A stretch of DNA of 64,000 bases from Candidatus Brocadia pituitae (GTDB lineage Bacteria; Planctomycetota; Brocadiia; Brocadiales; Brocadiaceae), in NCBI GenBank assembly GCA_017347445.1, contig AP021856.1, positions 1,372,613 through 1,436,612 on the forward strand, given 5' to 3'. The notes beneath the pieces were generated by a model, which saw only the letters and a program-made list of their open reading frames with translations, did no database searches and was not told the DNA's origin. A program made the position numbers and the translations under genes. Position 1 is the stretch's first letter. Each line of letters begins with the position of its first letter. Positions 16,852-64,000 of the stretch are shown piece after piece.

Positions 16852-16908
16852 CTAAAAAAAAAGCCTTACAGCAAAGATTATTTCCAAACATCTTCGGCAG
16901 TAAGGCTG
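16852..16908 (-). terminator. Intrinsic terminator of riboswitch module, left copy
   Basis: On the minus strand AGCCTTAC pairs with GTAAGGCT around an inner AAGAT/ATCTT stem. The hairpin is followed by a long U-tract (T-run opposite 16852-16861). Its 5' arm contains the TGCC that closes the upstream aptamer, so the two structures exclude each other. Confidence 0.7.
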
Positions 16909-17012
16909 TCTTTTCCCATAAGCCGTTAAAACTGTTTAAACGGTTCAAACAGTTTTAACGGCTCGCAAAGACCCTATTACTTTGCGCCCCCAGATCACTC
17001 AGGGTTTACCTT
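16896..17012 (-). ncRNA. c-di-GMP-I (GEMM)-like riboswitch aptamer, left copy
   Basis: On the minus strand the RNA starts GGTAAACC. Next comes a hairpin capped by GUGA (a GNRA tetraloop), then GGCGCAAAG and GGGUCU. A long stem in which GCCGTTAAAACTG is complementary to CAGTTTTAACGGC follows, and it ends in TGCCGAAG. GGUA at the 5' end pairs with UGCC at the 3' end. This order matches the GEMM consensus. No minus-strand gene follows: the convergent gene ends at 16704 and only a 36-codon ORF is open. The copy may be orphaned. Confidence 0.55.
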
Positions 17013-17176
17013 TATCAAAAATGTCTTCTGATATAGGCAATGAGCGAAATAGAAACCATATCACAGAAAAATAAAATATTAAAAAGATTATTTCTTTACT
17101 CTTTTATTTTAAGTTACTTATATATCATAAAGTACGGGCATGCATAACAACAGATTCAGGGAATCCCCACAAAATA

Positions 17177-20836: not shown

Positions 20837-20888
20837 GCAAAAAAGCCTTACCGCAAAGATTTTGTCAAAACATCTTCGGCAGTAAGGC
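20837..20888 (-). terminator. Intrinsic terminator in the leader of the 1101-aa gene
   Basis: AGCCTTAC and GTAAGGCT form a strong minus-strand hairpin with an inner AAGAT/ATCTT stem, followed by TTTTTTGC. It lies 36 bases before the ATG. Its ascending arm contains the TGCC needed for the aptamer's closing helix, which predicts ligand-dependent antitermination. Confidence 0.75.
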
Positions 20889-20990
20889 TGTCTTTTTCAA
20901 AGCCGTTTGGACGGTTCAAGCGATTTAAACTGTTTAATCGGCTCGCAAGATCCTTTACTTTGCGCCCCCTGATTACTCAGGGTTTGCCTT
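20878..20990 (-). ncRNA. c-di-GMP-I (GEMM)-like riboswitch aptamer, right copy
   Basis: The minus strand reads GGCAAACC, then the perfect hairpin CCCTGA-GTAA-TCAGGG with a GNRA (GUAA) loop, then GGCGCAAAG, GGATCT, a variable stem and TGCCGAAG. GGCA pairs with UGCC to close the element. The GGCAAACC, GNRA hairpin, CGCAAAG order and terminal UGCCGAAG are hallmarks of class I c-di-GMP riboswitches. It lies directly upstream of the terminator and the 1101-aa gene. No covariance search was run. Confidence 0.6.
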
Positions 20991-21083
20991 TATCAAATGT
21001 TTTCTGATATACACCGCAAGCGAAAGAAAAGCCATATCACAGAAAAAAACAAATATTCTGATTGATTATTTCATTAGTTAAGT

Positions 21084-59657: not shown

Positions 59658-60043
59658 TCTTCGCCTCCAAAATGTTCGGTGAACTGGTAACGCATTACAG
59701 AGATGACATTGCCTAGTTATTGTCCATGCACGATTTTTTTCAAGGAGAAGTGCTGTTGGTTGAAATGCCTGAATTTACCGATAAAAATGGGATTTGCATA
59801 AAAACCAATATCCAGAGAGAGGGGCATTTCAAATGAAAGTAATCATGGCAAGAGTATAGCAAAATACTTAAGAGAAGGAAACAGAAAACAGAGAGATGGC
59901 TAACGAAGAAGCAGTGGAAAGTTTAAAAGAGTCCTTAAAAGTTAAATAATCGTACAACCTAAATGATTTAATTTATACGATGTGATAATCACCCGCACCT
60001 TCCCGCTACTCAGCGGCGGCATTCCCGAAGCACGCAGCACTCC
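59658..60043. other. Non-coding gap before the cassette-like block
   Basis: No convincing gene is present; open frames are short. It separates the gene ending at 59657 from the attC-like site at 60044. Confidence 0.5.
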
Positions 60044-60135
60044 GTGAACGCCCCAGATCAGCGAGACGTTGCCATCGTTCCCGATTGTCAACCTGAGCGT
60101 CATCCGCAGGGTTCGCTGCATCTGGTTTGTTTGGC
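60044..60135 (-). repeat. attC-like site after the osmC fragment
   Basis: CCAGAT-CAGCGA on the left and TCGCTGCATCTGG on the right are inverted repeats differing by one extra base. The right core is GTTTGGC (60129-60135), which ends five bases from the osmC stop. The core sequence is only a partial match to the attC consensus, so it is degenerate or diverged. Confidence 0.45.
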
Positions 60136-60139
60136 AGGG

Positions 60140-60403
60140 CTATTTCTTAGGTTCGACTTGGATATCTACTTTCGTGCCATTGATGAGCGTGTTATAAACA
60201 GGAGAAAGCGAGGCGAGTGCTCTCAGCTTCTCGATGTTCTGGGGGTCGGTCTTCACTATGAACTTCACCCGAATAGCGGTGTATCCTTTCGGCACGCCGG
60301 CCAATCCGAAAAATCCGCGAAGGTCTATATCACCCTCTAATTCTGACTCCAATTCCTGTATCTCAATGCCGCGAACCGCAGCGTGAGCGTTCGACCGAAC
60401 TTA
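60140..60403 (-). pseudogene. 5'-truncated osmC-like fragment
   Basis: The frame RSNAHAAVRGIEIQELE, then DIDLRGFFGLAGVP and KLRALASLSPVYNTLING, matches the C-terminal half of OsmC-type peroxidase proteins. The N-terminal half is missing and there is no start codon at the breakpoint (about 60404). It ends in TAG at 60140 beside the attC-like site. It looks like a truncated cassette or an insertion-disrupted gene. Confidence 0.55.
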
Positions 60404-60418
60404 CGCTAAGGTCTCAGA

Positions 60419-60452
60419 CGAACGATAAAGGGGTGAATAAGTTTTCCACAAC
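60419..60452. repeat. Short interspersed repeat, copy 2
   Basis: AACGATAAAGGGGTGAATAA followed by GTTTTCCACAACAC matches 49333-49366. It starts just beyond the break of the osmC fragment. The rest of 60453-60675 holds no gene and has short self-similar stretches (TTGCTTCG-type) common between bacterial genes. Confidence 0.5.
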
Positions 60453-60675
60453 ACCCCTCTGCCCGTCCGGCAGGCTGGCGCAGCTTCTCTTGATAATTAA
60501 ATAATTAAGGAATTTCAAGGTTGAAGATTGCTTCGCGAAGTTTACACTGGCACATTCGCTTTGCTCAGTGTGAACTCCATGAATGTGCTCGCAATGACGG
60601 ATAGAACAGTATATTATTGTGAGGAACGCATGTGACGAAGCAATCTATTTAAGACTAACCAATCTCTATGCCTAA

Positions 60676-61041
60676 CTAGGTTACGGCGTCATTTATTGAG
60701 TAAAATACGTGGTGTTCAAAAGCGACCTCACATCTCAGAGGAATTTCCCACATCCTTCCCAAACCATAACCCAATGCCTCTGACATAACAGCAGCGATTC
60801 GCGCGGGTCCTATAATATCTGAATTCTCTACGATAAAATTTCGATACGTGTCCACATCGGATTTTGATATCCCATTAAAATCCACATCCCGGTGATCGAC
60901 GAGGATAGTCATCCCCTTTACCCATTGTGTATCGTTAAGAAGGTCTATAACAAAGATTTTAAATCCCTCTAATGTGGCATGCCCATGGGTGCGAATTATT
61001 ACAAAATTTTTCTTCGGATAAAATATAAATTCGTGCTCCAT
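60676..61041 (-). CDS. Possible STAS/SpoIIAA-like protein (121 aa)
   Basis: Alternating strands and helices (FVIIRTHGHATLEGFKIFVI, MTILVDHRDVDFNGIS) resemble a SpoIIAA-like (PF11964) fold; that is tentative. No signal peptide. It could be a former cassette gene: just after its stop (60676) the minus strand reads CCTAGTTAGGC. Function unknown. Confidence 0.5.
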   Translation of the reverse strand: MEHEFIFYPKKNFVIIRTHGHATLEGFKIFVIDLLNDTQWVKGMTILVDHRDVDFNGISKSDVDTYRNFIVENSDIIGPARIAAVMSEALGYGLGRMWEIPLRCEVAFEHHVFYSINDAVT

Positions 61042-61543
61042 ACAGACACCTTTTATTTACCCAGAGCCTTTCTTTAGCGATATAGTATTACTGTGTAAAA
61101 ACTTCTTTTTTTGTAAGTTTTTTAATACACCATAAAATCCTTGAGGTAGGTCAACCGTCCCCGGTTGACATCATAATGACAAGCGGAGACGCTTGTCCTA
61201 CCAATAAAGGGGTTTGTTTGCGACTTTGCTGCGCAATGAATATCCTGAATAATGAAGACAGAGGAAAATTGGCCAGGAGAAATACACGACTTAATAGTCT
61301 TTCTCCAGGGCAATGCTGAGGTCTCTTTCATGTCCTGATCTAACGGCACAGAAAACATTATTTGGAAAGTATTCTATAGCAACATATGCAAAACCTTACC
61401 GTTTGCGGGAATTTTAAGACTTAATGCCGGATCTGAGCCGTTTACGGAGGTCATCTGTCTTAATGGGAATGATTCCCAAAGCGCAGATTTGCATGAGAGG
61501 GAATCTTTTCTTTTGCCTCTGCTCAGCGAAGCGTGCAGCATCT
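61042..61543. other. Gene-free stretch within the cassette block
   Basis: The only features I see are a double-hairpin repeat at 61145-61207 and a T-rich stretch near 61110. Translated frames have many stops. It could be decayed cassette DNA. Confidence 0.5.
61145..61207. repeat. Interspersed double-hairpin repeat, copy 2
   Basis: GGTCAACCGTCCCCGGTTGACA followed by AATGACAAGC and GCTTGTCCTACCAATAA matches 49388-49447 in order and shares the final 17 bases exactly. Confidence 0.6.
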
Positions 61544-61614
61544 CGGGAACGGCGAAGCTCACCTGCCGCTATGGAGCGTCAGCGGAATAGCGGCAGGTAG
61601 AGCGTATTGTTAGG
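61544..61614 (-). repeat. attC-like site downstream of the toxin gene
   Basis: On the minus strand CCTAAC (61614-61609) begins the site. The arms GCTCTACCTGCCGCTAT and ATAGCGGCAGGTGAGC pair with one extra T, as in the extrahelical base of attC. The other core is GTTCCCG instead of GTTRRRY. The site overlaps the toxin stop codon, the usual place for a cassette recombination site. It is degenerate. Confidence 0.5.
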
Positions 61615-61890
61615 GACGCTTTTTCGTATCTTGTCTATTATCAAAAACAGAATGAATCACAATTTCTTCACTTTCGATTGTGTAAAATATTGAAAATGGG
61701 AATCTTCTGATAAAGCCCTTCTGAAATTTGAGTAACACAAATTATACATTTCTGGAAAGGTTAGGATATTCTTTAATGACATTTCAACGCAATCAAGGAA
61801 CTCAAAACCAAGTCCTCTTCTTTGTTTTTCATACCATGCAAAAGCCAGTTCAATATCATCTTTGGATCTATCCGTATAAGGAAGAATCAT
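61610..61890 (-). pseudogene. ParE/RelE-type toxin, frameshifted
   Basis: From ATG 61890 the frame gives RSKDDIELAFAWYEKQRRGL and FLDCVEMSLKNILTFPE, the ParE/RelE fold, up to residues FRRA. One base appears missing near 61706. In the shifted frame FIRRFPFSIFYTIESEEIVI continues to a stop at 61610. The broken frame ends early at 61657 with an unrelated tail. The missing base or a sequencing error explains it; programmed shifting is possible. Confidence 0.7.
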
Positions 61891-62114
61891 TTATATTTAT
61901 TCCTTAGTTCCTCATGAATACCTTCCCAATCATGAAGCTTTAATTTTCCGCTTTTATAATCACGGTATCTCTTATCTAATTCTGATTTTTGCCATTCTGG
62001 CATTGGTAGCTCAGTATTATTTCTAGCAATAGAATCCCAAATGTCCTCAACCAGTATCAATTTCTCCGACAGACCTAAGTTATCTATTTCTTTTATAATT
62101 TCATTCGGTCTCAT
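61887..62114 (-). CDS. Antitoxin of a ParE/RelE-type module (addiction module component)
   Basis: The protein (75 aa) resembles the TIGR02574 addiction-module component: MRPNEIIKEIDNLGLSEKLI, then EDIWDSIARN and ELPMPEWQKSELDKR. The stop overlaps the toxin start by four bases. GAGGAGG precedes its start. Such pairs are common in integron cassettes. Confidence 0.75.
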   Translation of the reverse strand: MRPNEIIKEIDNLGLSEKLILVEDIWDSIARNNTELPMPEWQKSELDKRYRDYKSGKLKLHDWEGIHEELRNKYK

Positions 62115-62188
62115 GCAAACACCTCCTCTTTAAATTTTCCTTCTATTAAAAATAGGTTCTCATGCTGAGATTGGGCGTTGATCCAAAA

Positions 62189-62396
62189 CTAGACAGATTT
62201 AGGATATTGGTAGTTAGGATTAACAACTTTTCCATGCTCCTGACAGACATTACATATCCCAGCCCCATCATCCTTGCTCCCATTCCACGTGCGCGCGTTG
62301 TTATTTCTATTCCACATGTCGCGCAATTGCAAGTTGTCTCTCCATTGCAGTGTGGGGACATAACTTGAAGCCAGTATCAGATTGCCTCAACGCCAT
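62189..62396 (-). pseudogene. Zinc-ribbon small protein, frameshifted
   Basis: ATG 62396 follows AAGGAGG. Three frames together give a Cys-rich chain: MALRQSDTGFKLCPH, then CNGETTCNCATCGIEI, then GAGICNVCQEHGKVV to a stop at 62189. Two frameshifts are needed, the first at a CACAC run near 62355. The CxxC pairs suggest a zinc ribbon. The intact frames do not show a full protein, so the call is tentative. Confidence 0.4.
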
Positions 62397-62415
62397 ATAT
62401 TCTCCCTCCTTTTTC

Positions 62416-62508
62416 ACCTAACGACCCAAGCTCAGCGACCCGGCCCACAGGACGCCTCGATTGCAACCGCAGCGCGATGGCCGGGTTCGCTGCAGCGCAT
62501 GGTTAGGC
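62416..62508 (-). repeat. attC-like cassette recombination site
   Basis: On the minus strand it begins GCCTAAC (62508) and ends GTTAGGTG (62415). Left and right arms are inverted repeats (GCTGCAGCGAACCCGGCC against GGCCGGGT-CGCTGAGC) with one extra base each, the unpaired-base signature of attC. It starts eight bases after the nuclease-like gene stop. About 93 bases is within the attC range. Confidence 0.75.
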
Positions 62509-62515
62509 AGCAGCT

Positions 62516-62992
62516 TCATATCAACCACTTCTTCATGTCTGCTCGCAACTCGAACATCGCAACCTTCGGGTCGCTCGAATACTGTGCCAAGTAAGCGTCA
62601 GACATCTTCCAGCCAGACCCGCCACCGGATGTAAGCGGAAACAACTCTAGGAAATGCTCCATCGTGGTGATGAAAACTCGAATAATGCTGTCAGCATCAA
62701 CAACGATGGCAAAGTATGGCGCGCAACCAAACGCCTCACACGCAGCCTTAACCTTGTCAAAATCGCCACTCCTGACAATCACATACTCGCTCTCTGTGCC
62801 TGGCGTCCGAGTGCGACTCTTGACTGAAATGCCCATAACTTCCGATTTGCGTGGATGTCGAGCGATGAGGTCAATGCCGGTGTGGTCAACGCTGGCGCAC
62901 TCGAAACCAGACTTCGACAACCAATAAAGCACTAACGTCTCGCCGAAATCTCCGACTATTTTGGAATGTCGTGAACTCTTGGTGATGTCCAT
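62516..62992 (-). CDS. PD-(D/E)XK nuclease-like cassette protein (158 aa)
   Basis: The segment GDFGETLVLYWLSK followed by DHTGIDLIARHPRK and VMGISVKSRT has the order Glu, Ile-Asp, and xVK typical of PD-(D/E)XK folds. It matches Holliday-junction-resolvase-like or restriction-type endonucleases. The protein is soluble and lies between an attC-like site and a GTTAGGC core (63003-63009), as in a gene cassette. Activity and substrate are unknown. Confidence 0.65.
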   Translation of the reverse strand: MDITKSSRHSKIVGDFGETLVLYWLSKSGFECASVDHTGIDLIARHPRKSEVMGISVKSRTRTPGTESEYVIVRSGDFDKVKAACEAFGCAPYFAIVVDADSIIRVFITTMEHFLELFPLTSGGGSGWKMSDAYLAQYSSDPKVAMFELRADMKKWLI

Positions 62993-63002
62993 GCGCTCTG
63001 CT

Positions 63003-63009
63003 GCCTAAC
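63003..63009 (-). promoter_or_regulatory. Cassette insertion core site (attI side)
   Basis: GTTAGGC on the minus strand lies ten bases before the cassette gene's ATG. It faces the integrase gene across 160 bases that hold no gene. This is where the first cassette would join attI. Confidence 0.6.
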
Positions 63010-63171
63010 ATTCATTTTTATCTTTCTTCTACAAACGCCAGCATTTTATGTTATGCCTTATGAGTTGTCAAACAAAAACAGGGAAAATTGTGTTGAAATA
63101 TCGGATGTACTTCTATAATATGAGTCTAATTTTATTAATATGTAGAATCTTAATAATTATTTGTTTTTATT

Positions 63172-64000
63172 ATGCATGCGGCTTTCAAAGATTACCTTAC
63201 TCAAAAAGCGCTGGTTAAAGATAAATACATACCTTTTTACCTGAAGTGGGTCTCTGATTGTTGTGCGTTCCTTAACGCAGTCGATTCAGCGATTATAAAC
63301 TCCGATCAAACGAACAAATTCCTGAAGTATTTGGCGAAAACTCATGAAGACTGGCAGGTCAGGCAGGCTGGCAATGCGCTAAGGCTCTATAGCTATTACC
63401 TCAGTTCTTTAGAAAAAAAGGCATCGATTAAATCTGCAGAAAGTGAAAACGAATGGAACCTGCTTGAAACGCAGACACGGGAAGCCCTCAGGCTCAGACA
63501 CCGGTCATACAGCACGGAAAAGACCTATATCGCCTGGTTGCGCTCGTTTCGGGGATATGTCTATGATATAAAACCATCACAACTAACCAGCGGGAATATA
63601 CAGGATTTTCTGAGTTATCTCGCCGTCGAACGAAAGGTGTCTGCTTCCACACAGAATCAGGCCTTGAATGCGCTTATTTTTGTTTACCGGCATGTGCTTG
63701 AAAAGGAGTTGGGTGAAAAGGAACTGAATGCTGTGCGGGCAATATATAAACGGCGCCTTCCCGTGGTGCTCACGCTCAAGGAGGTGCATGCAATATTTGA
63801 CCATCTGTCAGGAGTCCAACGTATTATGGCAATGCTCACGTACGGATGCGGACTCAGGTTGCAGGAATGCCTGAGTCTGCGGATAAAAGACATTGATCTC
63901 GAACAGAGCATTGTCATGGTGAGATCGGGTAAGGGAGATAAGGATCGGAGAACGATCCTCCCTGAGTCTCTGAAAGATGACCTCATTGCGCACATTTCGG
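63172..64000 (+). CDS. intI: Integron-type tyrosine recombinase (partial, runs off the window)
   Basis: The open frame from ATG 63172 continues to the right edge with no stop (276 residues visible). An N-terminal part with two SAM-like core-binding regions leads (the second at YSTEKTYIAWLRSF). The catalytic domain follows, with LPVVLTLKEVHAIF, YGCGLRLQECLSLRIKDID (catalytic Arg) and GKGDKDRRTILPESL (catalytic Lys). This resembles IntI. The Tyr, HxxR and IntI-specific insert lie beyond the window, so a XerC/D-like recombinase is not fully excluded. The gene is divergent from the cassettes, as in an integron. Confidence 0.8.
   Translation, partial: MHAAFKDYLTQKALVKDKYIPFYLKWVSDCCAFLNAVDSAIINSDQTNKFLKYLAKTHEDWQVRQAGNALRLYSYYLSSLEKKASIKSAESENEWNLLETQTREALRLRHRSYSTEKTYIAWLRSFRGYVYDIKPSQLTSGNIQDFLSYLAVERKVSASTQNQALNALIFVYRHVLEKELGEKELNAVRAIYKRRLPVVLTLKEVHAIFDHLSGVQRIMAMLTYGCGLRLQECLSLRIKDIDLEQSIVMVRSGKGDKDRRTILPESLKDDLIAHIS

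Follow-up and report, generated by a model that had tools for sequence, protein, structure and literature searches.

The stretch of DNA analysed here, the window (64,000 nucleotides; positions 1372613-1436612 of contig C1 of genome G000, which is a single 4.08-Mb contig of 4,075,302 bases), ends in a genuine chromosomal integron with a single cassette, which is bisected by the window edge. In the reading that we prefer, and to which we assign a probability of roughly 0.72, this locus is the platform that carries the integrase within a distributed chromosomal integron. Hereby we mean that attI-Pc platforms of decayed integrons, which have lost intI and are here called orphans, would be retained at other loci as expression docks and would be served by the integron integrase IntI in trans. 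The putative extra domain at the N-terminus of the integrase and the dispersed integrase-less attI copies, neither of which the original prediction could see, are the more surprising part of the result.

At the window locus all four parts of an integron, namely intI, attI, the promoter Pc and a cassette with its attC site, are present in the usual divergent order (Table 1). The outward-facing Pc beside attI is a predicted promoter, which matches 11 of 12 consensus bases with a spacer of 17 nt. The original prediction had placed a cassette with an attC-like site and GTTAGGC cores on the strand opposite to intI, and this was borne out. The cores are found at 62502-62508 (+) and 63009-63003 (-), and the R'' box GCCTAAC of the attC is predicted exactly by TTAGGC, the leading core of its cassette. 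Folded as DNA, the site at 62416-62508 shows the anatomy of an attC, with ends ACCTAAC/GTTAGGC, R and L boxes, an R stem of 6 bp, unpaired spacers and an L stem in which two single bases are extrahelical (-22.3 kcal/mol; z = -2.06; 5 of 200 shuffles fold equally well). The two extrahelical bases share one arm of the + strand, which is the bottom strand in cassette orientation, and are not divided between the arms as had been claimed. Beyond 62416-62508 no further attC was seen at the window locus, and the array consists of one attC-bounded cassette. Only the 158-aa ORF, which begins 17 nt from the core, sits inside this cassette; the antitoxin and zinc-ribbon ORFs are located in the variable region behind it, and homology with the orthologous locus of genome G006 resumes about 3,081 bp (~3.1 kb) from the window attI. 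Of the ORFs on this strand that had been taken as typical cassette cargo, the toxin-antitoxin and zinc-ribbon ORFs are without recognisable attC bounds. Regarding the functions that had been assigned to these ORFs, the antitoxin was supported (Unstab_antitox, 4e-16), while the toxin, PD-(D/E)XK-like and zinc-ribbon labels found no family match. The zinc-ribbon-like ORF behind the attC (62146-62420) appears frameshifted by eye; other frames contain an AGGAGG-ATG start and a further stretch with CxxC. Elsewhere in the window there are two matches to the c-di-GMP-I riboswitch, at 16893-17020 and 20874-20997 (-), the second of which is just at the gathering score.

Table 1. Coordinates of the integron features at the end of the window.
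Feature	Position in window	Strand	Basis and remarks
intI, first 276 codons	63172..64000	+	TIGR02249, 2a3v alignment, full ORF; gene end at G000:C1:1437022, outside the window
IntI N-terminal extension, residues 1-100	63172..63471	+	weakly SAM-like, probably a duplicated core-binding domain
Pc promoter (predicted)	63043..63071	-	TTGACA 63071-63066, 17 nt, TAAAAT 63048-63043; points into the cassette
Pc-attI element (family-wide dispersed 73-nt element)	63007..63078	-	match to profile R1, 68.9 bits, E = 2.4e-20
attI	63003..63034	-	near-invariant block of ~25 nt ending at the crossover G63009|T63008, followed by the cassette core TTAGGC
Gene cassette 1	62422..63008	-	from attI crossover to attC crossover; bounds set by G|TT cores and core/R'' match
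Cassette ORF, 158 aa	62516..62992	-	without family match; likeness to PD-(D/E)XK seen by eye only
attC of cassette 1, 93 nt	62416..62508	-	the + strand is the folded bottom strand
Rest of variable region behind cassette	59928..62421	-	up to resumption of homology with the orthologous G006 locus
Antitoxin-like ORF in variable region	61887..62114	-	Unstab_antitox / TIGR02574
ORF overlapping the antitoxin ORF	61657..61890	-	toxin by position only; no Pfam/NCBIfam match

The tyrosine recombinase crossing the window edge, which had been described as IntI-like, was completed from the genome (L004:5784-7022, reaching C1:1437022). The complete protein comprises 412 aa without stops and scores 405 bits against the NCBIfam model TIGR02249 'integron integrase' (cut-off 265). 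Its residues 102-411 align to IntI4 of PDB entry 2a3v (E = 8e-77), and this alignment takes in the integron-specific insert KYPNAGKEWAWFWLFPS...VRRHHM as well as the Arg of GLRLQE and the motifs HTLRH, GHTN and IYTH, which provide the catalytic residues R, HxxR, H and Y. The IntI insert in the part beyond the window edge and the attC nature of the site at 62416-62508 were the tests that had been set beforehand; the presence of the insert, together with the catalytic residues and the attC anatomy, supports the reading as a chromosomal integron. The assumption of an anammox genome likewise finds support, as the genus-mates of G000 include Candidatus Brocadia MAGs. Before the normal IntI start stand the extra residues 1-100, whose sequence is suggestive of a second SAM-like core-binding domain, probably a duplicated one. 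In line with this, Phage_int_SAM_4 matches the extension with E-values of 1.1e-5 in the relative L214, 0.002 in L170 and 0.021 in the window IntI, and a comparison of the extension to the true SAM domain by hhalign gives a probability of 60.6%. For the window part of IntI, a single-sequence AlphaFold model reached a pLDDT of 38 and was set aside. In a quick midpoint-rooted tree the extended IntIs of Brocadiaceae and Nitrospirota cluster together. Genome G000 also carries a second IntI (L187:3214-6690, from G000:C1:1773500 onwards), a 295-aa ORF that is missing its N-terminal portion. About 1.8 kb from it there is a weak attI-like match, and the cargo is a cold-shock/DUF1294 ORF.

When the DNA of the window locus was used as a query, two matches 57-66 kb away were returned, both without intI. 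The Pc-attI element was subsequently found in 29 of the 33 genomes of the family by BLAST and in 32 with the profile R1, which was built from the BLAST-found copies. At E <= 0.01, R1 yields about 250 copies (summed from the table) in these 33 genomes, with up to 19 per genome and 9 in G000, counts that vary with the E-value cut; many or most of the relatives are MAGs. Three strong G000 copies are 79-87% identical to the window copy, and the layout of Pc is retained in the dispersed copies. Among 392 Planctomycetota genomes (E <= 1e-4) the element is confined to Brocadiaceae, apart from three genomes that belong to a different family of this order. A few copies are present in Nitrospirota, and viral contigs gave no match to the element pattern. 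Exact 22-mer matches in Alteromonadaceae, Patescibacteria and Xanthomonadales MAGs, which are without the GTT core, were taken as chance; an exact 22-mer match was also obtained in a Clostridia MAG. A cognate full-length IntI (at least 80% identity) was found only in G000, G005 and G018 among the 33 genomes, and IntI at E <= 1e-40 is absent from 17 of the 33, including G017, a single-contig genome with 5 copies of the element. This lack of a detectable IntI today in many orphan-bearing genomes, G017 among them, was counted against the preferred reading. At L090:4800-7540 and L089, three Pc-attI platforms of equal orientation are packed into 3 kb, and N-terminal remnants of IntI lie between them.

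Over 71 copies of the element, the information content at G, T and T amounts to 1.61, 1.90 and 1.73 bits, and beyond these positions it falls to 0.68, 0.34, 0.21 and ~0.1 bits. Since conservation breaks exactly at G|TT, the orphan elements are read as attI and the break as the integron crossover. The orphan copies are homologous to the attI adjoining an intact cognate intI, and the joining of cassettes at G|TT is indicated by the conservation break, by the comparison of orthologs described below and by the occurrence of the same unit at three sites. The core after the crossover differs between loci, and in 12 of 65 copies its reverse complement equals the R'' box of a downstream attC-like hairpin (permutation mean 1.4, maximum 6 in 10,000). 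This permutation test, along with a looser scanner, replaced a strict attC scanner that expects R'' and R' to be nearly complementary and that found almost nothing at orphans. By the strict and looser scanners and the core/R'' test, most orphan copies have no recognisable attC, a result which we counted against our best explanation. One own-genome orphan site considered as an attC, L002:835-923, was dropped because its fold is not better than that of shuffled sequences (z = -0.19). It has to be considered whether the element is rather a dispersed promoter with its leader, i.e. a regulatory repeat or mobile promoter which the integron co-opted and which does not serve as a recombination site at orphans. 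The presence of a consensus promoter with a conserved, A-rich leader in front of many unlike genes would fit such a repeat, but it explains neither the sharp drop of conservation at G|TT nor the core/R'' matches, nor the IntI remnants on the expected side of the element. Moreover, while sharing no common sequence, the attI regions of the extended-IntI relatives have a common layout (TTGACA-like box, ~17 nt, -10-like box, ~40 nt, GTT), which stands before every extended intI looked at. We therefore consider a mere promoter repeat very improbable.

The start of the chosen ORF lies no more than 60 nt from the core in 48 of 90 copies, compared to 92 of 327 control positions. The cargo classes behind the crossover are diverse (toxin-antitoxins, restriction-modification, TIR/SEFIR, unknowns), and among the cargo are DNA methyltransferases, an XhoI-type endonuclease, PIN, Phd/YefM, RelB-like, TIR/SEFIR and DUF1294 proteins and many unknowns. 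One toxin-antitoxin unit of 513 bp is found at three unrelated attI sites, with the same TTATAA end each time. These sites (L089/L090, L146 and L109) belong to different genera; the unit carries GTTATAA or a variant at both ends, and no attC hairpin is visible. At L095, L096, L099, L120 and L133, the attI core is touched by a short hairpin that is perfect or nearly so (such as GTTCCTGAAGCG..CGCTTCAGGAAC). Directly after this hairpin, L096 and L120 have an attC-like stretch (80% alike over 102 nt), as if a gene-less mini-cassette were sitting at attI.

On the expected side of the element, IntI sequence is present in 18 of 92 copies: three have the intact cognate intI, one has a distant intI of another type (L187) and 14 have remnants of the cognate type. 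In these, for example, IntI residues 1-19 are joined to 299-412, or residues 1-76 and 324-412, 313-411 or 388-412 are left. Homology toward the intI side ends at varied points, mostly from -58 to -512. The remnants and the varied deletion ends identify the remnant-bearing orphans as decayed integron platforms, and the remaining orphans are probably decayed platforms as well. The search for a common end gave none, and there was no shared sequence behind the intI stop that would point to the terminus of a transposon. Outside the family, a Thermodesulfovibrionales MAG has an 82-aa ORF (L170:4809-5057) that represents the IntI N-terminal domain only and adjoins an orphan attI with an XhoI-type restriction-modification pair, and in a Nitrospiraceae MAG (L168) IntI residues 5-79 are fused to 349-409; a stand-alone DNA-binding remnant is a possibility here. 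The remnants and progressive deletions would also be left if the orphans were fossils, whose cassettes were captured while intI was present, with intI lost afterwards and nothing acting in trans. Pc would then be kept because it drives the captured gene. The retention of attC at few orphans fits such a history, as does the conservation of Pc and attI, which is equal whether or not a genome has IntI (p = 0.48). A role as promoter only, however, does not predict the observed stronger conservation of the attI block compared to the promoter.

Orthologous orphan sites bear directly on this question. About ten groups of such sites have flanks of 0.4-2.1 kb that agree at 70-92% as far as G|TT. Beyond this point the sequences are unrelated, and the shared flanks stop between -3 and +7 of the G. 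Averaged identity amounts to 0.79 for the flank and 0.90 for attI; downstream it is 0.475, equal to the unrelated background of 0.466 ± 0.048. Homology often resumes downstream at varied distances, and hence the difference is an inserted or replaced segment. L098, L134 and L135 have a common scar (IntI 388-412, 84-158 bp from the core) and different cargo, and so do L129 and L136, in which the start of IntI is joined to approximately residue 313. L089 and L193, from the near-finished assemblies of G017 (one contig) and G015 (four contigs), are 92% identical over 1,993 bp up to +7 and then differ. Likewise, the G000 copy at C1:1492957 has cargo unlike that of G006 and G003. Some pairs, such as L195/L192, retain the same cargo, showing that the break is not automatic. 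To explain such differences by assembly errors at a multi-copy repeat, or by homologous recombination between attI copies, one could point to the multi-copy nature of the element and to several MAG contigs that end nearby. Yet the copies within a genome are far from identical (79-87% in G000), the differences in the G017/G015 pair and in the G000 copy would have to be accounted for, as would the pairs with retained cargo, and homologous recombination would not halt at G|TT every time. We regard this explanation as highly implausible. Different cargo exactly from G|TT at sites with a common intI-less junction, in two groups with the same scar, implies that exchange came after the loss of intI, and this calls for an integrase in trans. 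The same observation argues against the fossil history, which we judge to be unlikely. IntI acting in trans on orphan attI is the simplest reading. The sites, the scars and the exact position of the break are observed; that IntI did act, and when, we infer from the sequence comparisons.

Taken together, the distributed integron that we favor might have arisen and might work as follows. By the textbook mechanism, to which the anatomy of the locus points, IntI would join the attC of a circular cassette to attI at G|TT and thereby place the cassette gene under Pc. Platforms of the window IntI type would have settled at many chromosomal loci in anammox Brocadiaceae, and at many of these intI was then deleted piecemeal with Pc-attI retained, as the remnants and varied deletion ends show. 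Orphan Pc-attI sites would have stayed usable, so that cassettes could be inserted, removed or replaced after intI loss. Judging from the orthologous sites, the integrase in trans could be an IntI that is intact at another place in the genome, or one that was there only temporarily. We lean slightly towards the more general notion that in an anammox genome several chromosomal Pc-attI docks share the service of a single, sometimes transient, integrase, with toxin-antitoxin and defence genes expressed from many sites and not from one array with an expression gradient. An attI-Pc that is multi-copy, outlasts intI and seems still to receive cassettes would make the integron a set of many independently expressed docks per chromosome. 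Orphans with a common intI scar make a natural action of integrase in trans directly testable, in bacteria that are central to the nitrogen cycle and are used in wastewater treatment.

The usual description of an integron is that of a single platform, in which one attI adjoins intI. The window locus shares with sedentary chromosomal integrons the same four parts in divergent order, but differs from them in the suggested second SAM-like N-terminal domain of its IntI, in having one attC-bounded cassette and in the recurrence of its attI-Pc elsewhere without intI. It does not resemble mobile (class 1-type) integrons, as it lies on a chromosomal contig and common ends are lacking; no plasmid record covering 80% of the IntI protein was among the matches listed. 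Clade-15 IntIs, described in 2008 mainly from Deltaproteobacteria, are ~120 aa longer by gene fusion (PMC2426708). The long extra part is, by description, a likeness to the window-type IntI, whereas the extended IntIs reported here are from Brocadiaceae and Nitrospirota. CALINs are integrase-less integron parts that can be mobilised in trans by a functional IntI (PMC12444791). They are attC sites without intI (at least two), while the orphans are the converse, i.e. attI and Pc without intI, and most orphan loci show none or one attC-like hairpin. Cassette insertion at non-classical genomic targets, termed attG, is reported by Loot et al. 2024, as cited in PMC11023631, and delta-attI gene cassettes contain attI parts within class 1/2 cassettes, away from intI (PMC12901181). 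The former resemble the orphans in cassette recombination outside an intI-adjacent attI and the latter in attI sequence away from intI; in contrast to both, the Brocadiaceae copies are a full attI with promoter at many chromosomal loci. Existing software seeks attI only for class 1 (PMC9024848), so that surveys by intI and attC would miss orphan sites. In the literature searched, from which subscription papers were mostly outside, we found no description of orphan attI sites or of integrons in anammox genomes. The window locus itself is thus of a known type, a chromosomal integron, with an extended IntI, and the dispersed integrase-less attI-Pc sites are new as far as that literature goes. Decaying integrons with intI pseudogenes are known (PMC2426708; for Xanthomonas, PMC12444791), and in these, as here, intI is lost and the rest of the locus stays. 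However, such integrons lose the platform at their own locus, whereas here Pc-attI is retained at many loci per genome and, after the loss, species differ in the cargo at these loci.
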